From Cytophagales bacterium (lineage in GTDB: Bacteria > Bacteroidota > Bacteroidia > Cytophagales > Cyclobacteriaceae): a DNA stretch of 64,000 nucleotides. Positions 12,032-62,280 of this stretch are shown in pieces (the stretch's first letter is position 1; the number at the start of each line of letters is the position of its first letter). The stretch covers positions 62,001 to 126,000 of the forward strand of contig JAKSDO010000187.1 of the NCBI GenBank assembly GCA_022360055.1, given 5' to 3'. The notes under the pieces were generated by a model. That model saw only the letters and a list, made by a program, of their open reading frames with translations, had not been told where the DNA came from and searched no databases. The position numbers and the translations under genes are program-made.

Positions 12032-13105
12032 TCAATCGGTCCTTTTCCTTCTCAAAAACGGAATGATCAGCGCCACAACGACGATAAATCCTGAAACGAT
12101 ATAGGCCCATTGATTTGTGACTTTTGATTCTGCATGCATCACGAAATCACTGTCCATAAACTTTATGATATCCATCTCCCACGCCAGGGTATCTTCTCGG
12201 ATAATTTCTGCATTCGTGTCAATTAATTGACCGGGCATGATCATCTCATTATTATAATCCGCACCGAATCCCGACAGTATTTCTTTTTCATATTTTTCAT
12301 CCAGCCTTGCTTGTTGTACCCGGTGATACAATTGCGACAAGTCAGCGGAATCAAGTCCCATCTCCACGCCCATCAATTCGGCAAGGTCCGGAATTTCCAA
12401 ATCATCACCCAGAGCCAGGGAGATCATCTTCTTTGATCCTTCATCGATCCTTTTGCTTATGGAATCCTTCAAGGTTTTTACCCGGATCTCATCCAAATCT
12501 ATAATATGCAATGAATCCGCCAACCTGATTATATCATCAAAGGCCAATGAGTAAATATTGTCGTGCAACCAATAACCAAAACGCTCTTCAATATTCCCGA
12601 TAAGCGAATTCCTCGCCTTGGCGTCCAGTCCGGCGAGCAAGGGATGTTCTTCTGAATCCATTTTAAAGGATTCTGCCTCCTCCTTGGTCATGTAATTGGT
12701 AATCGGAATTTCAGTAAGTATGCCTTTGTAAGTTTCGCTGTATTCAAATACGGTATAAAACCACCTGAATTTTTTTATAAGTTCTACTTTTCGCTTATAG
12801 ACTTTTAATGCGCTTTCATCATCGGAATACATCGAATTCAACGCACCGACAGATTCAAACACCTTGAGCAAGACGGCTGTGGAATCGTTGATATTTTCCA
12901 GGAGCCAGGAATTGTCGATGGGTACGGGGACATCAAATTTTATACTATCAATTCCCTTGAATTTTCTCGGATCAAAATTACCGATCGTCCGGATGCAGCT
13001 TCCATCCCTGTTGATCTTGGTGGTTACATTTTCCGTTTCCGGACAACCTGCCAGAAATGGCAATACAGCTATGCCAAAAATAAATAAGAGCTTCGTTTTT
13101 TTCAT
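12032..13105 (-). CDS. Lipoprotein of unknown function with C-terminal membrane anchor
   Basis: I place the start at the ATG ending at 13105, because a signal peptide then begins at once (MKKTKLLFIFGIAVL...LAGC). A start 14 codons earlier would bury it. Cysteine in LAGC is the likely lipidation site. The mature 330-residue part is charged and mostly helical, and the C-terminus has one membrane helix (AYIVSGFIVVVALIIPFL) followed by RRKR. A lipoprotein with such a tail anchor is uncommon. It follows the sigma/anti-sigma pair on the same strand, and so may sense envelope state, but this is inference. Family not recognised. Confidence 0.75.
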   Translation of the reverse strand: MKKTKLLFIFGIAVLPFLAGCPETENVTTKINRDGSCIRTIGNFDPRKFKGIDSIKFDVPVPIDNSWLLENINDSTAVLLKVFESVGALNSMYSDDESALKVYKRKVELIKKFRWFYTVFEYSETYKGILTEIPITNYMTKEEAESFKMDSEEHPLLAGLDAKARNSLIGNIEERFGYWLHDNIYSLAFDDIIRLADSLHIIDLDEIRVKTLKDSISKRIDEGSKKMISLALGDDLEIPDLAELMGVEMGLDSADLSQLYHRVQQARLDEKYEKEILSGFGADYNNEMIMPGQLIDTNAEIIREDTLAWEMDIIKFMDSDFVMHAESKVTNQWAYIVSGFIVVVALIIPFLRRKRTD

Positions 13106-13127
13106 TTGTTTAAAATTTGCAGAAACC

Positions 13128-13286
13128 TCACCATGTGCCGTTGACAATCATCATCTTATATGTCTCAATAATTATCTCAGGCATGGCCTGTTTCATCTTT
13201 TTATATTTTTTTAGTTCGCTGACACGCAGAGCAATATAATCATGCTCGTGGGTGTCCTGAATTTGCTCCGGTCCTACCGGTTTCAT
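13128..13286 (-). CDS. 52-codon ORF containing repeat copy B
   Basis: Minus-strand ORF from ATG 13284-13286 to TGA 13128-13130. The protein begins MKPVGPEQIQDTHEHDYIAL and goes on through a lysine-rich stretch (SELKKYKKMKQ) to a short hydrophobic tail. It starts 10 bases after the anti-sigma stop and ends 22 bases before the lipoprotein start, so it fits the operon as a small gene. Its first 28 or so codons are the repeat element also found at 33902-33995 and 60531-60624, where the frame is cut to 32 and 23 codons. It may therefore be the intact form of a small-protein family, or only a reading frame across a structural repeat. Confidence 0.4.
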   Translation of the reverse strand: MKPVGPEQIQDTHEHDYIALRVSELKKYKKMKQAMPEIIIETYKMMIVNGTW

Positions 13287-32754: not shown

Positions 32755-33291
32755 TCAGTATGGATAATAAGGGCTGATCATCAAATAAACGATGACACCT
32801 GTAATAGATACATACAACCAAACCGGAAACGTGTATTTCACAATCTTCCGGTGTTTATCAATTTTACTGGAAACAGCAAAATAGAGTGCCGATAATACTA
32901 AAGGCACAACCAGAAATGCTAAAAGCACATGGCTGATCAAAAAGAAAAAATATACAAACCTGATCGTTCCTTCAGCGCCGAATTTTGTAGAAGGGGCATT
33001 GGAATGGTAAATCACGTAAAATACCAGGAAGATGCAACCGAGAACGAAAGCCCCCACCATGGTCATTTTATGATATTGCACCTTGGCATTTTTCACAAAA
33101 TATACCCCCAAAATCAAAAGAATAGAAGTAAGTGTGTTGATGACAGCGTTGTAAAACGGAAGCGAATATATCCATGGAGGTACCTCGCCGGAAGCCCTCT
33201 TTGGTGCCACAAGCAGTATTACCACAACAGCCGGTATCAGTAAAGAGACCAGGATAAATAATCGTCTGAATAAATTACTCTTTTCTTTCAT
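32755..33291 (-). CDS. DUF420 membrane protein, oxidase-associated
   Basis: 178 residues with four or five membrane helices and basic loops. The pattern LPFYNAVINTLTSILLILGVYFV and KIDKHRKIVKYTF are typical of DUF420 proteins, which often lie beside SCO and cytochrome oxidase genes and are thought to help oxidase assembly (CtaM-like in Gram-positive bacteria). Its start overlaps the SCO-like gene stop by 4 bases. Confidence 0.85.
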   Translation of the reverse strand: MKEKSNLFRRLFILVSLLIPAVVVILLVAPKRASGEVPPWIYSLPFYNAVINTLTSILLILGVYFVKNAKVQYHKMTMVGAFVLGCIFLVFYVIYHSNAPSTKFGAEGTIRFVYFFFLISHVLLAFLVVPLVLSALYFAVSSKIDKHRKIVKYTFPVWLYVSITGVIVYLMISPYYPY

Positions 33292-33899
33292 TGGTCGTTT
33301 TTCTGCTTTAGTATTTTTAACTCCAGGATCAATCGATCTGTTTGCGCTACATCGTTACTTTTATATATCCCCCGAATCTTCCGGTCGGGATCGACCAGTA
33401 CGAGATTGTCAAAGCTCCCGGAATTGTCAAGCAAGGCAATCCCGCATTTTAAATAATCCTCCAGCGCATCTTTCGGCATATGTGCAATGATCCGATTTTC
33501 CGGCTCCAATCCGGTTTCATTGCAGAGCCGGGCGAATGTGGCGTGCCGGTTAGACTGCCCTGAATTAAACAGGATAAACTTCGGGGCCCCGACCTCAAAA
33601 AAAGCATCCTGAATTCGCACGAGCTCAACCAGTCTTTCTCTGCATTCATCCGACTGGGCCCCATTTAAGGCCCCGAATACCAGGAAACCCCGCAATTCGC
33701 TTGAATTTTTTTGCCCCAGGTGCTCATCGAGGTATACGAATTCCGGAACAATATGCGCATTTGACAAATTATTACACCCGGGAATACCCGCATCAAACAA
33801 CACGGGAACTTCGTAGGTATTTGTTCCAAAAATCTTTAAGAACAAAAAAATAGCAACCGGTATGGCAAGAGTTAATATTAAGAAAAAAGGTTTATTCAT
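33288..33899 (-). CDS. Divergent SCO1/SenC-like protein without the copper motif
   Basis: 203 residues with one N-terminal membrane helix (PFFLILTLAIPVAIFLFL) and a thioredoxin-like domain; the region FDNLVLVDPDRKIRGIYK and LILELKILK matches SCO proteins of Bacteroidota. The CxxxC copper site expected near residue 80 is missing: FGALNGAQSDEC keeps only C86. So copper delivery in the usual way is doubtful. It lies in the position normally held by SCO1 between coxIV and DUF420. The ATG overlaps the TGA of the mini-ORF in repeat copy C (ATGA), which suggests coupled translation. Confidence 0.7.
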   Translation of the reverse strand: MNKPFFLILTLAIPVAIFLFLKIFGTNTYEVPVLFDAGIPGCNNLSNAHIVPEFVYLDEHLGQKNSSELRGFLVFGALNGAQSDECRERLVELVRIQDAFFEVGAPKFILFNSGQSNRHATFARLCNETGLEPENRIIAHMPKDALEDYLKCGIALLDNSGSFDNLVLVDPDRKIRGIYKSNDVAQTDRLILELKILKQKNDQ

Positions 33900-33994
33900 G
33901 TCATCCGTTTATTTTTTTTTAGGTTGCTGGCATGCAGCGTAATATAATCACGCTCGTGCGTGTCCTGAATTTGCTCCGGCCTTGCCGGTTTCAT
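33896..33994 (-). CDS. 32-codon mini-ORF in repeat copy C
   Basis: ATG at 33992-33994 to TGA at 33896-33898. The peptide begins MKPARPEQIQDTHERDYI and ends in a basic stretch. The TGA overlaps the start codon of the SCO-like gene (ATGA), the classic form of a leader ORF coupled to its neighbour. Coding by itself is unproven. Changes compared with copy B are mostly non-synonymous, which argues against selection on the peptide. Confidence 0.3.
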   Translation of the reverse strand: MKPARPEQIQDTHERDYITLHASNLKKNKRMT

Positions 33995-33995
33995 T
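33902..33995 (-). repeat. Dispersed two-hairpin repeat, copy C
   Basis: Minus-strand copy of the repeat at 60531-60624, more diverged. The small hairpin is CCGGC-AAG-GCCGG: the closing T-A pair of the other copies is changed to C-G. The larger stem-loop pairs CGCACGAGCGT with ACGCTGCATGCC around the conserved loop GATTATATT. The A-rich tail and CGGATG end are kept. It lies between a terminator-like hairpin and the SCO-like gene. Confidence 0.8.
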
Positions 33996-34022
33996 TTTTA
34001 ATATGAATGAAGGAAAACGGAA

Positions 34023-34058
34023 AAAGTCAGTGATCTATGTGTTACGATCGCCGACTTT
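34023..34058 (-). terminator. Terminator-like hairpin after coxIV
   Basis: On the minus strand, AAAGTCGGCGATC pairs with GATCACTGACTTT around a 10-base loop (12 of 13 positions pair, counting one G-T), and five T's follow. It lies 21 bases after the coxIV stop, and could end the act-cox transcript or attenuate it before the SCO-DUF420 genes. The T run is short, so strength is uncertain. Confidence 0.55.
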
Positions 34059-34078
34059 ATTTATTTTTCAAGGTAGAC

Positions 34079-34411
34079 TTACTTCATACCCAAGATCGCC
34101 CCGCCTTCATACATTAGGGCAATGACCAGCCATACGACAAAAATCATAGGTAGTATTATGGACCAGATGAGCACTTTCGTTTCATGCTTCAGATGCATAA
34201 ATTCCGATACAATGTAGAATGCCTTTACAAATGTCAATCCGATAAAGATGGATATCTTCATCCATTTCCAGGTTTCGGGCAATGAGAATGCAAAAATGAA
34301 TTCAATGATCGTCACTACCAACAATATCCCGGCGATTTTCCAGAGCTTGTTTATACTTGATTTGTCGGCAGGCTGAACTTCAACCTGAGAGATTTCTTCC
34401 AATAATGCCAT
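34079..34411 (-). CDS. Cytochrome c oxidase subunit IV
   Basis: 110 residues with three membrane helices (about 25-45, 50-70 and 80-102) and a polar N-terminus. It has the composition and length of bacterial COX IV (CtaF-like), a structural subunit of heme-copper oxidases. It starts 13 bases after the larger subunit III gene and closes the structural oxidase genes. Confidence 0.82.
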   Translation of the reverse strand: MALLEEISQVEVQPADKSSINKLWKIAGILLVVTIIEFIFAFSLPETWKWMKISIFIGLTFVKAFYIVSEFMHLKHETKVLIWSIILPMIFVVWLVIALMYEGGAILGMK

Positions 34412-34424
34412 ATGCCTAAGAGTT

Positions 34425-35186
34425 TTAAATCAAATAGAAAAACGTAAATACAAATACCCAAACCAGGTCGACAAAGTGCCAGTAAAGCCCAACCTTTTCA
34501 ATCATTTCATAATGGCCCCTGCGCTCGAAGGTGCCGACAGAGGCCTGGTAAAACACAATCACATTGAGCACAACACCACTCAGCACATGCGTGCCATGAA
34601 AACCGGTAATAAAGAAAAACAAATCGGCAAAAAGCTGTGGCCCATACTCGTTCATCGCCAGATTGGCCCCTACGAAATCAATAACTCCATTGCCAGTGAG
34701 ATCCAACCCCCAGCCCTCCTTTCCGGAACCGGCTATAAAGTGTGACCATTCCCAGGCCTGACATCCCAGGAAGGCCAATCCTCCTACAATTGTCCACAAC
34801 ATCCACTTCATCACATTTTTTCTGTCCATGCGATGACCTGCCTCAACGGCCAGTACCATGGTAACGCTGCTCATGATGAGAATAAATGTCATTAATCCAA
34901 CAAAGGCCAGAGGGATGGATACACCATGTAAGAACGGAAGGGCGTCAAATATCTTTTCAGGAATTGGCCAGTATTCCTGGGAAGGCATGAAATCGGCCGC
35001 TTTTCCTTCAAACGCGGGATGGCTGTATCTCAATAATCCATAGGTAATTAAAAGTCCGGAGAAGGTAAATGCATCGGAAAGCAGAAAGAACCACATCATG
35101 AGTTTTCCATAGCTTGCCTTCAACGGGGATACCCCTCCTCCCCATAAGTTTTTGCTCGTTTGTTCTGCTATAGCTGTTGACGCCAT
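34425..35186 (-). CDS. Cytochrome c oxidase subunit III, larger copy
   Basis: 253 residues, seven membrane helices. Start at the ATG ending 35186 gives MASTAIAEQTSKNLWGG; a longer frame up to 35252 would overlap the neighbouring subunit III gene by 50 bases and is unlikely. Motifs typical of subunit III are present (KLMMWFFLLSDAFTFSG, FITGFHGTHVLSGV, KVGLYWHFVDLVWVF). Two tandem subunit III genes, this one and the shorter 35203-35787, are usual in this phylum. Confidence 0.9.
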   Translation of the reverse strand: MASTAIAEQTSKNLWGGGVSPLKASYGKLMMWFFLLSDAFTFSGLLITYGLLRYSHPAFEGKAADFMPSQEYWPIPEKIFDALPFLHGVSIPLAFVGLMTFILIMSSVTMVLAVEAGHRMDRKNVMKWMLWTIVGGLAFLGCQAWEWSHFIAGSGKEGWGLDLTGNGVIDFVGANLAMNEYGPQLFADLFFFITGFHGTHVLSGVVLNVIVFYQASVGTFERRGHYEMIEKVGLYWHFVDLVWVFVFTFFYLI

Positions 35187-35202
35187 ATAGGTTAATTTTT
35201 TA

Positions 35203-35787
35203 TTATAAATAGAATAATAAGAATAAATACAAATACAACCAAAGTCCTCCAAGAAAATGCCAGTACGTCATGCACATTTCGATTTGCACCAAATTCTTGG
35301 AATGAATCCTCATTTTCACTGAGGAAGCGAAGGTGATCAATAAAAATATGATTCCACTTACCAGATGTAATCCGTGCAATCCTGTAAATACATAAATGAA
35401 TGATCCGGATGCATAATTGCTTACAAAATATACATTGTTTCTTACCAGCTCCGACCAGGATATGTACTGTCCGGCTAAAAACGTCAACCCCAAAATAACC
35501 GTAACCACCAGCATCCACTTGATTCGTTCAAGGTTGTCTTTTTTGGCCGCCAGATATGCCACGTGCATGGTCAAACTGCTAAGAGCTATGATCACCGTAT
35601 TAACTGCAAAAACTCCGGGCAATTCGAAGGACAACCAATTACCGTCGGATTGTTTTACAATATAGGCGCTGGTTAACGCAGCAAAAAGCATGACGATAGA
35701 CACAATAAACAACCACAATGCAAACTTTTTGGGATGCATCGAAAGCGTCGGCTTCGGTTCGTCGATATGGATATTTTGATGCACCAT
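35203..35787 (-). CDS. Cytochrome c oxidase subunit III, shorter copy
   Basis: 194 residues, five membrane helices of the heme-copper oxidase subunit III family (KKFALWLFIVSIVMLFAALTSA, FTGLHGLHLVSGII and CMTYWHFLGGLWLYL). It ends 16 bases before the start of the larger paralogue. Its start codon overlaps the ctaB stop (TAATG), so translation is coupled. Confidence 0.9.
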   Translation of the reverse strand: MVHQNIHIDEPKPTLSMHPKKFALWLFIVSIVMLFAALTSAYIVKQSDGNWLSFELPGVFAVNTVIIALSSLTMHVAYLAAKKDNLERIKWMLVVTVILGLTFLAGQYISWSELVRNNVYFVSNYASGSFIYVFTGLHGLHLVSGIIFLLITFASSVKMRIHSKNLVQIEMCMTYWHFLGGLWLYLYLFLLFYL

Positions 35788-60530: not shown

Positions 60531-60624
60531 CATGAAACCGGTAGGACCGGAGCAATTTCAGGACACCCATGAGCATGATTATATTGCTCTGCGTGTCAGC
60601 TAACTATAAAAATATAAACGGATG
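60531..60624 (+). repeat. Dispersed two-hairpin repeat, copy A
   Basis: Starts CATGAAACCGGTAGGACCGG, where CCGGT pairs with ACCGG around AGG. Then a longer imperfect stem follows (GACACCCATGAGCA with TGCTCTGCGTGTC) around an AT-rich loop, and an A-rich tail leads to CGGATG, whose ATG (60622-60624) is the start codon of the S41 protease. The other copies are at 13196-13287 and 33902-33995 on the minus strand. It lies in the 95-base gap between rnpA and the protease, in the same orientation. Confidence 0.88.
60532..60603 (+). CDS. 23-codon mini-ORF in repeat copy A
   Basis: ATG at 60532 to TAA at 60601-60603. The peptide begins MKPVGPEQFQDTHEHDYIAL. In copy B the same frame stays open because GAA replaces this TAA. 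The frame's next ATG, after two stops, is the S41 protease start. It may be a leader peptide, or a chance frame over the structural repeat. Confidence 0.3.
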   Translation: MKPVGPEQFQDTHEHDYIALRVS

Positions 60625-62280
60625 AAAAAATACAGAGTTCCGGTATCAATCCTGATCACCACCATCATTATCGGTCTTTTTTCCTTTAATAATCCCAACG
60701 AAAGATATTTTGAGATTACGAGGAACCTGGACATCTTCTCGACATTATTTAAAGAAGTAAACGCATACTATGTCGATGAGGTGAATCCCAATACGCTGAT
60801 CAAAACCGGCATAGACGCCATGCTGGCATCACTTGACCCCTATACAAATTATATTCCTGAAGACGACATTGAAGATTACAGGACTATGACTACCGGTCAG
60901 TACGGGGGTATAGGCGCAATAATAGGACGCAGGAACGGAAAAAACGTAATTATGATGCCTTACGAGGGATTTCCTGCGCACAAATCAGGCCTTAAAATAG
61001 GCGATGAGGTGCTTAAAGTCAATGATGTCGATGTAAAGGATAAGAATACCTCTGATATAAGTCAGTTGCTCAAGGGTCAGGCGAATACCAAACTTTCGGT
61101 CACTGTAAAAAGGTATGGCGTTGACGAACCGATCGCAATTGACATCACCAGGGAAAAAATTACCATAGATAATGTCCCCTATTCAGGTATGCTCACCAAA
61201 AATGTAGGATATATCAAATTGTCGGACTTTACCACAGGGGCCGGAAAAGAAGTAAAAAAATCTTTGGAAAAACTTAAAAAAGAAGGCGCCCAAAAAATAA
61301 TTCTTGATCTAAGGGATAATCCGGGCGGTCTGCTGAATGAAGCTGTGAATGTTGCCAATGTCTTCATAAATCAGGGGTCCGAAGTTGTAAGTACTAAAGG
61401 AAAAGTAACCGATTGGAATAAAACGTATAAGGCGCTGAATCAACCTGTGGATATTGAAATCCCGATAGCTGTGCTGACAAATCGCAGAAGCGCTTCTGCC
61501 GCTGAGATTGTAAGCGGAGTCATCCAGGATTATGACCGAGGCGTGCTGGTTGGCGAAAAAACATTTGGAAAAGGGCTTGTGCAGGCCACCAGGCCATTAA
61601 CCTACAATTCGCAACTTAAGATTACGACAGCAAAATATTATATCCCGAGTGGAAGATGCATTCAGGCGATAAATTATAACAGCAGAAATCCCAACGGCAG
61701 TGTCGGGGCTATACCGGATTCATTAAAGGCGGAATTTACTACGCAGAACGGCCGCAAAGTTTACGATGGCGGTGGCGTTGACCCGGATCTTATCGTAGAA
61801 TTCACCATACCTGCGCCGATCACGATTAGCCTTGGCATTAAGGGACTATTATTCGAATACGCCCTGAAATATCATTATACGCATGAACACATAGGATCTG
61901 CAAAAGAGTTTAAATTAACAGATCCGGAGTATCAGGAATTTGTTGAATGGCTCAGCGATAAAGAGTATGACTACACGACTAAAGTGGAGAATACAATTGA
62001 GAACCTCAAGAAATATGCAAAGACAGAAAAGTATTTTGACAATATTAAAAATGAATTGGAAGACCTTGAAAAAAAAGCCATGCACAATAAAGAGCATGAT
62101 TTAAAAGAATTTGCTTCTGAGATTAAAAATGCCCTTGAAGAAGAAATCGTTAAAAACTATTATTTATTAAAAGGGAATTTCGAATCATCATTTGACAACG
62201 ACATGCAGTTGCAAGCTGCACTTGAAATACTAAAAGATTCAACAAGATACGATGGGCTGTTATCTGCTTCTTCGAATTAA
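60622..62280 (+). CDS. S41-family C-terminal processing protease
   Basis: 552 residues with an N-terminal signal-anchor helix (VPVSILITTIIIGLFSF), a PDZ domain (about 90-175) and the S41 catalytic domain, with S292 (RRSASAAE) and K317 (KTFGKG) as the Ser-Lys pair. A GRCIQAINY segment follows. The C-terminal 200 residues are helical and charged. It cleaves C-termini of exported proteins. The start codon is the conserved ATG at the end of the repeat element. A terminator follows. Confidence 0.92.
   Translation: MKKYRVPVSILITTIIIGLFSFNNPNERYFEITRNLDIFSTLFKEVNAYYVDEVNPNTLIKTGIDAMLASLDPYTNYIPEDDIEDYRTMTTGQYGGIGAIIGRRNGKNVIMMPYEGFPAHKSGLKIGDEVLKVNDVDVKDKNTSDISQLLKGQANTKLSVTVKRYGVDEPIAIDITREKITIDNVPYSGMLTKNVGYIKLSDFTTGAGKEVKKSLEKLKKEGAQKIILDLRDNPGGLLNEAVNVANVFINQGSEVVSTKGKVTDWNKTYKALNQPVDIEIPIAVLTNRRSASAAEIVSGVIQDYDRGVLVGEKTFGKGLVQATRPLTYNSQLKITTAKYYIPSGRCIQAINYNSRNPNGSVGAIPDSLKAEFTTQNGRKVYDGGGVDPDLIVEFTIPAPITISLGIKGLLFEYALKYHYTHEHIGSAKEFKLTDPEYQEFVEWLSDKEYDYTTKVENTIENLKKYAKTEKYFDNIKNELEDLEKKAMHNKEHDLKEFASEIKNALEEEIVKNYYLLKGNFESSFDNDMQLQAALEILKDSTRYDGLLSASSN

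Follow-up and report, generated by a model that had tools for sequence, protein, structure and literature searches.

The cox-cluster locus

The window, that is, the whole 64,000-nucleotide stretch of Cytophagales DNA that was analyzed, carries a cox cluster in which, on the minus strand, the end of coxIV is followed by a terminator-like hairpin, a copy of a short repeat (hereafter, the module), and the gene of a 203-aa protein. Two neighboring COX3-family ORFs of this cluster, at 34425–35252 (TTG start) and 35203–35787, overlap by 50 nt as listed. The features are:

34079, minus strand: end of the COX4_pro ORF (coxIV)
34023–34058, minus strand: terminator-like hairpin with T-run behind coxIV, found in four same-genus genomes too
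33905–33994, minus strand: type A module (90-nt unit), placed where the 203-aa cox-cluster gene begins
33976–33988, minus strand: module hairpin 1, CCGGC/GCCGG, 5 bp, whose inner pair shows compensatory changes among copies
33929–33964, minus strand: module hairpin 2, an imperfect 13-bp stem with moderate support
33905–33921, minus strand: A-rich module 3′ end, a proposed portable translation-initiation region
33901–33904, minus strand: host-side (right-end) ATGA of the module, followed by CA and not by the usual AA
33896–33994, minus strand: 32-codon mini-ORF of this copy, with its TGA overlapping the next ATG
33288–33899, minus strand: 203-aa ORF, called SCO-like in the first-pass annotation; no family match, orthologues in the genus

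The hairpin had been described by the first-pass annotation as terminator-like, and the folding bears this out: it reaches −14.1 kcal/mol with a z of −5.5, a value matched by 0 of 200 shuffles. Its pairing is kept in relatives (93.2% of 59 cells, compared to 24–51% in slid controls), while the covariation among the five sequences was not significant, 64 of 500 shuffles reaching the score. It looks like an ancestral terminator, and its proposed role in separating the structural cox genes from those that follow is plausible, the hairpin being kept in four relatives. The description of the repeat copy (33994–33901), named copy C of a repeat with a coupled frame of 32 codons, is literally right as well: the mini-ORF consists of 30 module codons followed by ATG ACA and TGA, and the TGA (33898–33896) overlaps the ATG (33899–33897) of the 203-aa ORF. 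On these letters, termination–reinitiation at the ATGA is possible. The overlap is nevertheless a feature of the cox copy, since only 53 of the 146 repeat copies have a frame that is open over its whole length. The 203-aa protein was found in all seven genomes of the genus; searches yielded no Pfam or NCBIfam match above cut-off and no convincing PDB relative, and "SCO" stays a label taken from the place in the cox cluster.

Among six relatives of the genus (G001–G006; the genome of the window is G000), four, namely, G005, G002, G003, and G001, show coxIV, the hairpin, the T-run, and then the gene, with no module. In G004, neither the module nor a clear hairpin was seen, and in G006 the orthologue stands in another context. 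In G005, a module follows the 203-aa gene at a distance of about 555 nt (L102); by position, this module lies 5′ of the second gene downstream. In three relatives (L102, L103, and L104), a TAnnTTTG box, which we take to be the Bacteroidota −7 element, directly follows the T-run (TAACTTTG, TACCTTTG, TAATTTTG), 15–20 nt 5′ of the start codon; it would give the downstream genes a promoter of their own. The box is absent at that place in G001 and in the window.

A dispersed repeat family

The genome of the window (7.5 Mb, 300 contigs) contains the repeat in well over a hundred copies. BLAST gave at least 47 matches, with 40 of 244 candidates scored, and a covariance model (R1) built from 48 copies (alignment A1) gave at least 153, with 150 of 5067 first-look candidates scored; the matches listed all span model positions 1–94. 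There are 146 full copies and three partial ones in 118 non-redundant stretches, one of which is the window. The consensus of the unit reads ATGAAACCGGY...RCCGGAG...AAAAAAATATAAACRG and stands directly 5′ of a host ATGA, mostly ATGAAA. The unit begins with ATGAAAC, has exactly ATGAAA as its first six bases in 120 of the 146 copies, and ends just 5′ of ATGA in 137. It is 90 nt long in 113 copies and 89 nt in 22; the other 11 have 87, 88, or 91 nt, one of them being cut by a contig end. Besides this type A, a type B occurs, mostly of 91 nt, with the ends and the hairpin at the same place and a different middle part. A type C is represented by a single fetched copy in this genome (L020); inspection also showed it in G015, G607, and G426. 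Over all copies seen, the element measures about 77–112 nt. Copies are stacked head to tail, type A with type B included, as in the first of the two other module sites of the window:

13193–13286, minus strand: type A module with right-hand ATGA, first of an A–B chain
13102–13196, minus strand: type B module with right-hand ATGA, directly at the ATG of ORF 12032–13105
60532–60625, plus strand: type A module with right-hand ATGA, directly at the ATG of an S41-peptidase gene (start 60622)

No match was found in phages and plasmids for one type A and one type C query, nor in viral contigs for three exact patterns. A known Rfam RNA family can be set aside, as nothing relevant appeared among the covariance models: positions 33000–35000 gave three chance-level matches far below gathering scores, and seven module loci gave none at E 0.1.

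Position at start codons

Joining the A and B copies gave 124 chains with 172 modules (85 single A modules and 39 chains of two to four), of which six at contig edges were dropped and 118 kept. In 79 of these, an ORF no shorter than 80 aa begins exactly at the right-hand ATG, and a stop lies a short way upstream; in seven more, such an ORF likewise begins exactly there, but the frame stays open further upstream, so that 86 chains adjoin the ATG of a long ORF. Another seven, among them the copy at the cox gene, have a start no more than 45 nt away. The remaining 25 are without an ORF start; in one case at least (L020), the reason is that a type C module comes next. As a control, ATGAAA sites of the same DNA were considered: gene starts make up 50 of the 120 non-genic sites and 50 of all 532 sites. 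The difference between 86/118 (73%) and 42% has p = 6e-12, with gene calls made by plain ORF rules and a control rule slightly different from that for chains; under the chain rule, 53 starts are found at 485 control ATGAAA sites. The excess of starts over what the frequency of ATGAAA gives may reflect selection as well as targeting. The host genes include those for thymidylate synthase, histidyl-tRNA synthetase, and P-II, and nine of ten tested proteins had Pfam matches.

The preference goes beyond the ATGA. The right-hand hexamer is ATGAAA at 74 of the 79 start-exact chains, compared to 50 of 169 control ATGA starts, and also at 18 of the 25 chains lacking an ORF start. With regard to a target-site duplication, as known from classical MITEs, ATGA is found on both sides of the module, but the two copies do not behave alike. 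Where the right hexamer is not ATGAAA (16 chains), the left one still is in 12, or in eight of ten when only single-module chains are counted. As the left copy mostly stays constant where the right one differs, the left ATGAAA is probably part of the element, and the right one part of the host. The reverse, a right ATGAAA with a changed left hexamer, occurs in 21 chains and may represent decay.

Hairpins and the adenine-rich end of the module

Hairpin 1 is maintained by compensatory change. Among 48 copies, its inner pair is C-G 23 times and U-A 18 times, and in a B-like set from several genera, it is G-C, U-A, A-U, or U-G; in the 14 distinct rows of that set, 91% of cells are paired, compared to 22–45% in slid controls. 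RNAalifold gave no pairs on the mixed alignment A4, because hairpin 1 of types A and B lies there in a shifted register; the B-like subset shows it. Hairpin 2 has 86.7% of cells paired, with one pair broken in 24 of 48 copies, and its reality is moderately supported.

The 3′ end of the module is marked by adenines. Positions −13 to −11 relative to the host ATG are A in 99–100% of 137 type A modules, in 100% of 22 type B modules, and in all three modules of G022 (a genome of another genus), compared to 38–48% of 138 native starts and 53–71% of the native flanks of 79 hit genes. Adenines also occupy −6 to −4 in nearly all type A, type B, and the three G022 modules. According to one study, Bacteroidota are naturally without Shine–Dalgarno sequences, and in F. 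johnsoniae, adenines at −3, −6, −12, and −13 favor translation (PMC6847099). By analogy, the module 3′ end would work as an initiation region. The fit to the F. johnsoniae pattern is incomplete because −3 is rarely A (3% of type A, 0 of 22 type B modules).

Other genomes and orthologous sites

In a BLAST search, 6 of 59 genomes matched: the own genome, four of the six genus mates, and G015, one other genome of the family; in the genus mates G002 and G006, no module was found by this search. Wider searches matched 4 of 118 family genomes (R1), 6 of 291 order genomes (R2), and 5 of 395 genomes at class level, and as only 36, 14, and 10 candidates a genome were scored in them, absence elsewhere is weak evidence. 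The family matches include three weak ones in G022 that end at ATGAAA. The order matches include 14 in G223, a genome of another family; seven of these were examined and all seven stand at an ORF start, one (L265) before ATGTAT and not ATGA. At class level, G607 and G426 look like modules among the four matches outside the own genome. The G211 match of the order search is not a module, L258 (order) and L288 (class) proved not to be modules on inspection, and L286 matches only 34 nt of the left module part. Within the genus, G001 has 29 matches with copies of 77–91 nt, and 18 of the 24 modules examined there exactly adjoin an ORF of at least 115 aa. Three public records with the module pattern are MAGs, two named Cyclobacteriaceae and one Bacteroidia.

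Within another family of the order, two genomes belonging to one genus carry a related module before the same 446-aa ORF (L255 and L257), and because the flanks are nearly identical, some copies are probably inherited vertically. A single A–C chain was seen in another genus (L043, contig C88 of G015). Its A part shares 87% identity with the own consensus, and G015 gave no Y1 hits; transfer or a relic is possible.

Three loci show occupied and empty orthologous sites, as judged by eye between different species in genomes that are all drafts, where losses at a single locus are possible. The cox locus was described above. In front of a PfkB kinase gene, modules precede the same ATGAAAAA in the own genome (four, in the order ABAB), in G005 (two), and in G001 (one), and none was seen in G002, G003, G004, and G006. 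The S41 peptidase gene has its module in the own genome; none was seen in these same four genomes, and G001 may have a decayed one.

Possible readings of the module

With dispersal, site preference, polarity, chains, occupied and empty sites, broken frames, and the adenine pattern observed, we consider the feature at the cox gene to be one copy of a family of non-autonomous mini mobile elements that insert at start codons and bring their own initiation region (probability about 0.7). Such an element would move as DNA, and its initiation-like 3′ end would explain why it is tolerated.

The main rival is a leader-RNA regulon, in which the module is a selected cis-acting RNA or protein-binding element that was spread by recombination and is kept for translation control. 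It agrees with the sense orientation to the downstream start, where one is present, with a resemblance in architecture that extends to other genera and to a further family of the order, and with the compensatory changes that keep hairpin 1. However, module positions vary between species of the genus, the sampled host genes are functionally unrelated, chains contain up to four modules, and 25 of 118 chains lack an ORF start, with ATGAAA nevertheless present at 18 of the 25. We consider this reading rather unlikely.

It could also be argued that the module is a coding element, i.e., a mobile N-terminal extension of 30 codons comparable to the Rickettsia palindromic elements that lie in frame in genes. 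The 90-nt unit has a stop-free consensus, the right-hand ATG is in frame with the module in 115 of 146 copies, including one that a contig end interrupts, and the ratio of non-synonymous to synonymous changes in 107 copies, 2.18, is somewhat under the 2.86 expected without selection. Nevertheless, no more than 53 of 146 copies have an internal ORF that runs open from end to end, and stops exceed the expected frequency (0.32 vs. 0.19 per synonymous change). The 33 copies of other length comprise one cut by a contig end, one of 87 nt, and 31 with a changed frame; type B, at 91 nt, contains stops, and lengths in G001 vary as given above. Hydrophobic N-termini downstream are equally frequent after open (14/23) and closed (31/48) modules. 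Judged on frames, stops, and the missing link to the type of N-terminus, a coding tag is very unlikely.

Least credible is the attenuator suggested by the first-pass annotation, in which the cox-cluster genes would be controlled by a single device made up of the hairpin, the leader ORF, and the coupled gene: the layout at 33896–34058 is as described and the hairpin is conserved, but in a ribosome-mediated attenuator the terminator does not precede the leader ORF, which overlaps or precedes it, whereas the cox mini-ORF comes after the hairpin; the leader ORF is a dispersed repeat, and the empty orthologous sites in four relatives that keep the hairpin without it speak against this device in the cox operon.

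Known repeats and a candidate mobilizing enzyme

The family of start-codon-inserting elements preferred here can be compared with several known classes. REP, BIME, and REPIN sequences, which are linked to RAYT (TnpA-REP) enzymes, are likewise short, palindromic, high-copy repeats that are thought to be non-autonomous and also occur in tandem; they are non-coding and lie outside genes (PMC3116915, PMC8266576, PMC6006769). In REPs, the palindrome bears at its foot a GTAG or CGTC tag; the repeats are mostly downstream of coding regions, and inside ORFs they are commoner at the N-terminus than at the end (PMC3733652), whereas the module has ATGAAA at its foot and the start codon as its place. PATEs, the ends-only derivatives of IS200/IS605, share with the module the small size, the hairpins, the lack of terminal inverted repeats, and the insertion beside a fixed short motif (PMC7290912). 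For the module, the corresponding observations are the ATGAAA preference, the fixed polarity, and the hairpin near the left end. In contrast to PATEs, the module has an initiation-like 3′ end, and its host motif faces the gene. Neither a parent IS nor ends in common with an autonomous IS200/IS605 element were found among 34 Y1 loci fetched. Rickettsia palindromic elements are also palindromic, dispersed, and tolerated at protein genes (PMC3733652, PMC10969869), but they are inserted in frame inside ORFs, whereas the modules do not keep the frame and sit at the start codon. BOX, RUP, and SPRITE repeats and MITEs are small, interspersed, probably parasitic, and can be co-transcribed (PMC3049150), and Correia elements are mostly just upstream of genes (PMC10969869). 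The modules differ from the BOX, RUP, SPRITE, and MITE group in the fixed polarity, the exact position at the start codon, and, by eye, the lack of terminal inverted repeats (left end ATGAAACCGG, reverse complement of the right end TTTCATCCGTTTA). No account of start-codon-inserted repeats in Bacteroidota was found in a literature that leaves out most subscription papers and preprints.

As to the mechanism, single-strand transposition of the IS200/IS605 or REP type with a Y1 enzyme acting in trans is a tentative candidate, which we regard as less probable than the main reading to which it belongs. IS200/IS605 elements are described as having no terminal repeats or duplications and inserting beside a fixed tetra- or pentanucleotide (PMC7290912). 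The module, with a hairpin beside its left end, fixed polarity, chains, no terminal inverted repeats by eye, and a left hexamer that mostly stays ATGAAA where the right one differs, is consistent with such a process. Y1/RAYT genes were searched in the genus and four other genomes, giving 42 Y1 matches. They occur in all seven genus genomes, including G002 and G006, which have no module by BLAST, but G015 has modules and no Y1 hit. No confident module, and hence no transposase or autonomous partner, was seen in the 34 loci fetched, where three weak module hits had E values of 0.09–0.23. Flanks were sought for 13 loci, and ORFs were obtained at seven of these, among which L196 is unlike a Y1 ORF. 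The five RAYT-type loci with readable flanks (L073 on contig C265 of the own genome, L199, L205, L275, and L280) have palindromes unlike the modules and unlike one another; in L205, there are two RAYT-type genes in a row. These loci are possibly of the Bacteroidetes REP-transposase type, subclass 2.6, for which atypical structures and copies elsewhere in the genome are described (PMC6006769).

A proposed start-codon-inserting element and its meaning

The element consists of its own ATGAAAC, one hairpin, often a second, and, in types A and B, an A-rich end. In the proposed mechanism, it would enter in sense orientation directly in front of an ATGA of the host, in most cases ATGAAA, integration needing ATGA(AA) and having a fixed polarity. 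As gene starts account for about 40% of the non-genic ATGAAA sites, many copies would land exactly there. After insertion, the host gene would keep its own ATG and still have an initiation region of the Bacteroidota type, the element becoming the 3′ part of its leader. It is proposed that insertion at the starts of the genes for thymidylate synthase and histidyl-tRNA synthetase is tolerated because the element ends in this initiation-like stretch. Repeated insertion at the same ATG would give head-to-tail chains of the same or different types. In the cox cluster, the element would have landed just behind an older terminator.

An insertion is expected to be most harmful at the start region, and it is there that the modules concentrate, the starts of the two genes just named included. 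The family offers a testable case for a mobile element that repairs what it breaks, with an end resembling the Bacteroidota initiation region, and a mobilizing enzyme to find. It also provides many natural leader replacements for the study of Shine–Dalgarno-free initiation. For annotation, it carries a warning: where a module is open and in frame, gene finders may extend the protein by about 30 false residues at the N-terminus. More broadly, we see an even chance that several Bacteroidota lineages harbor a class of mobile elements that use the start site (ATGAAA) as a safe integration site and carry a portable, Shine–Dalgarno-free initiation region, which would let them land on essential genes without silencing them. 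Such an element would be the start-codon counterpart of the integrases that target and restore tRNA genes.
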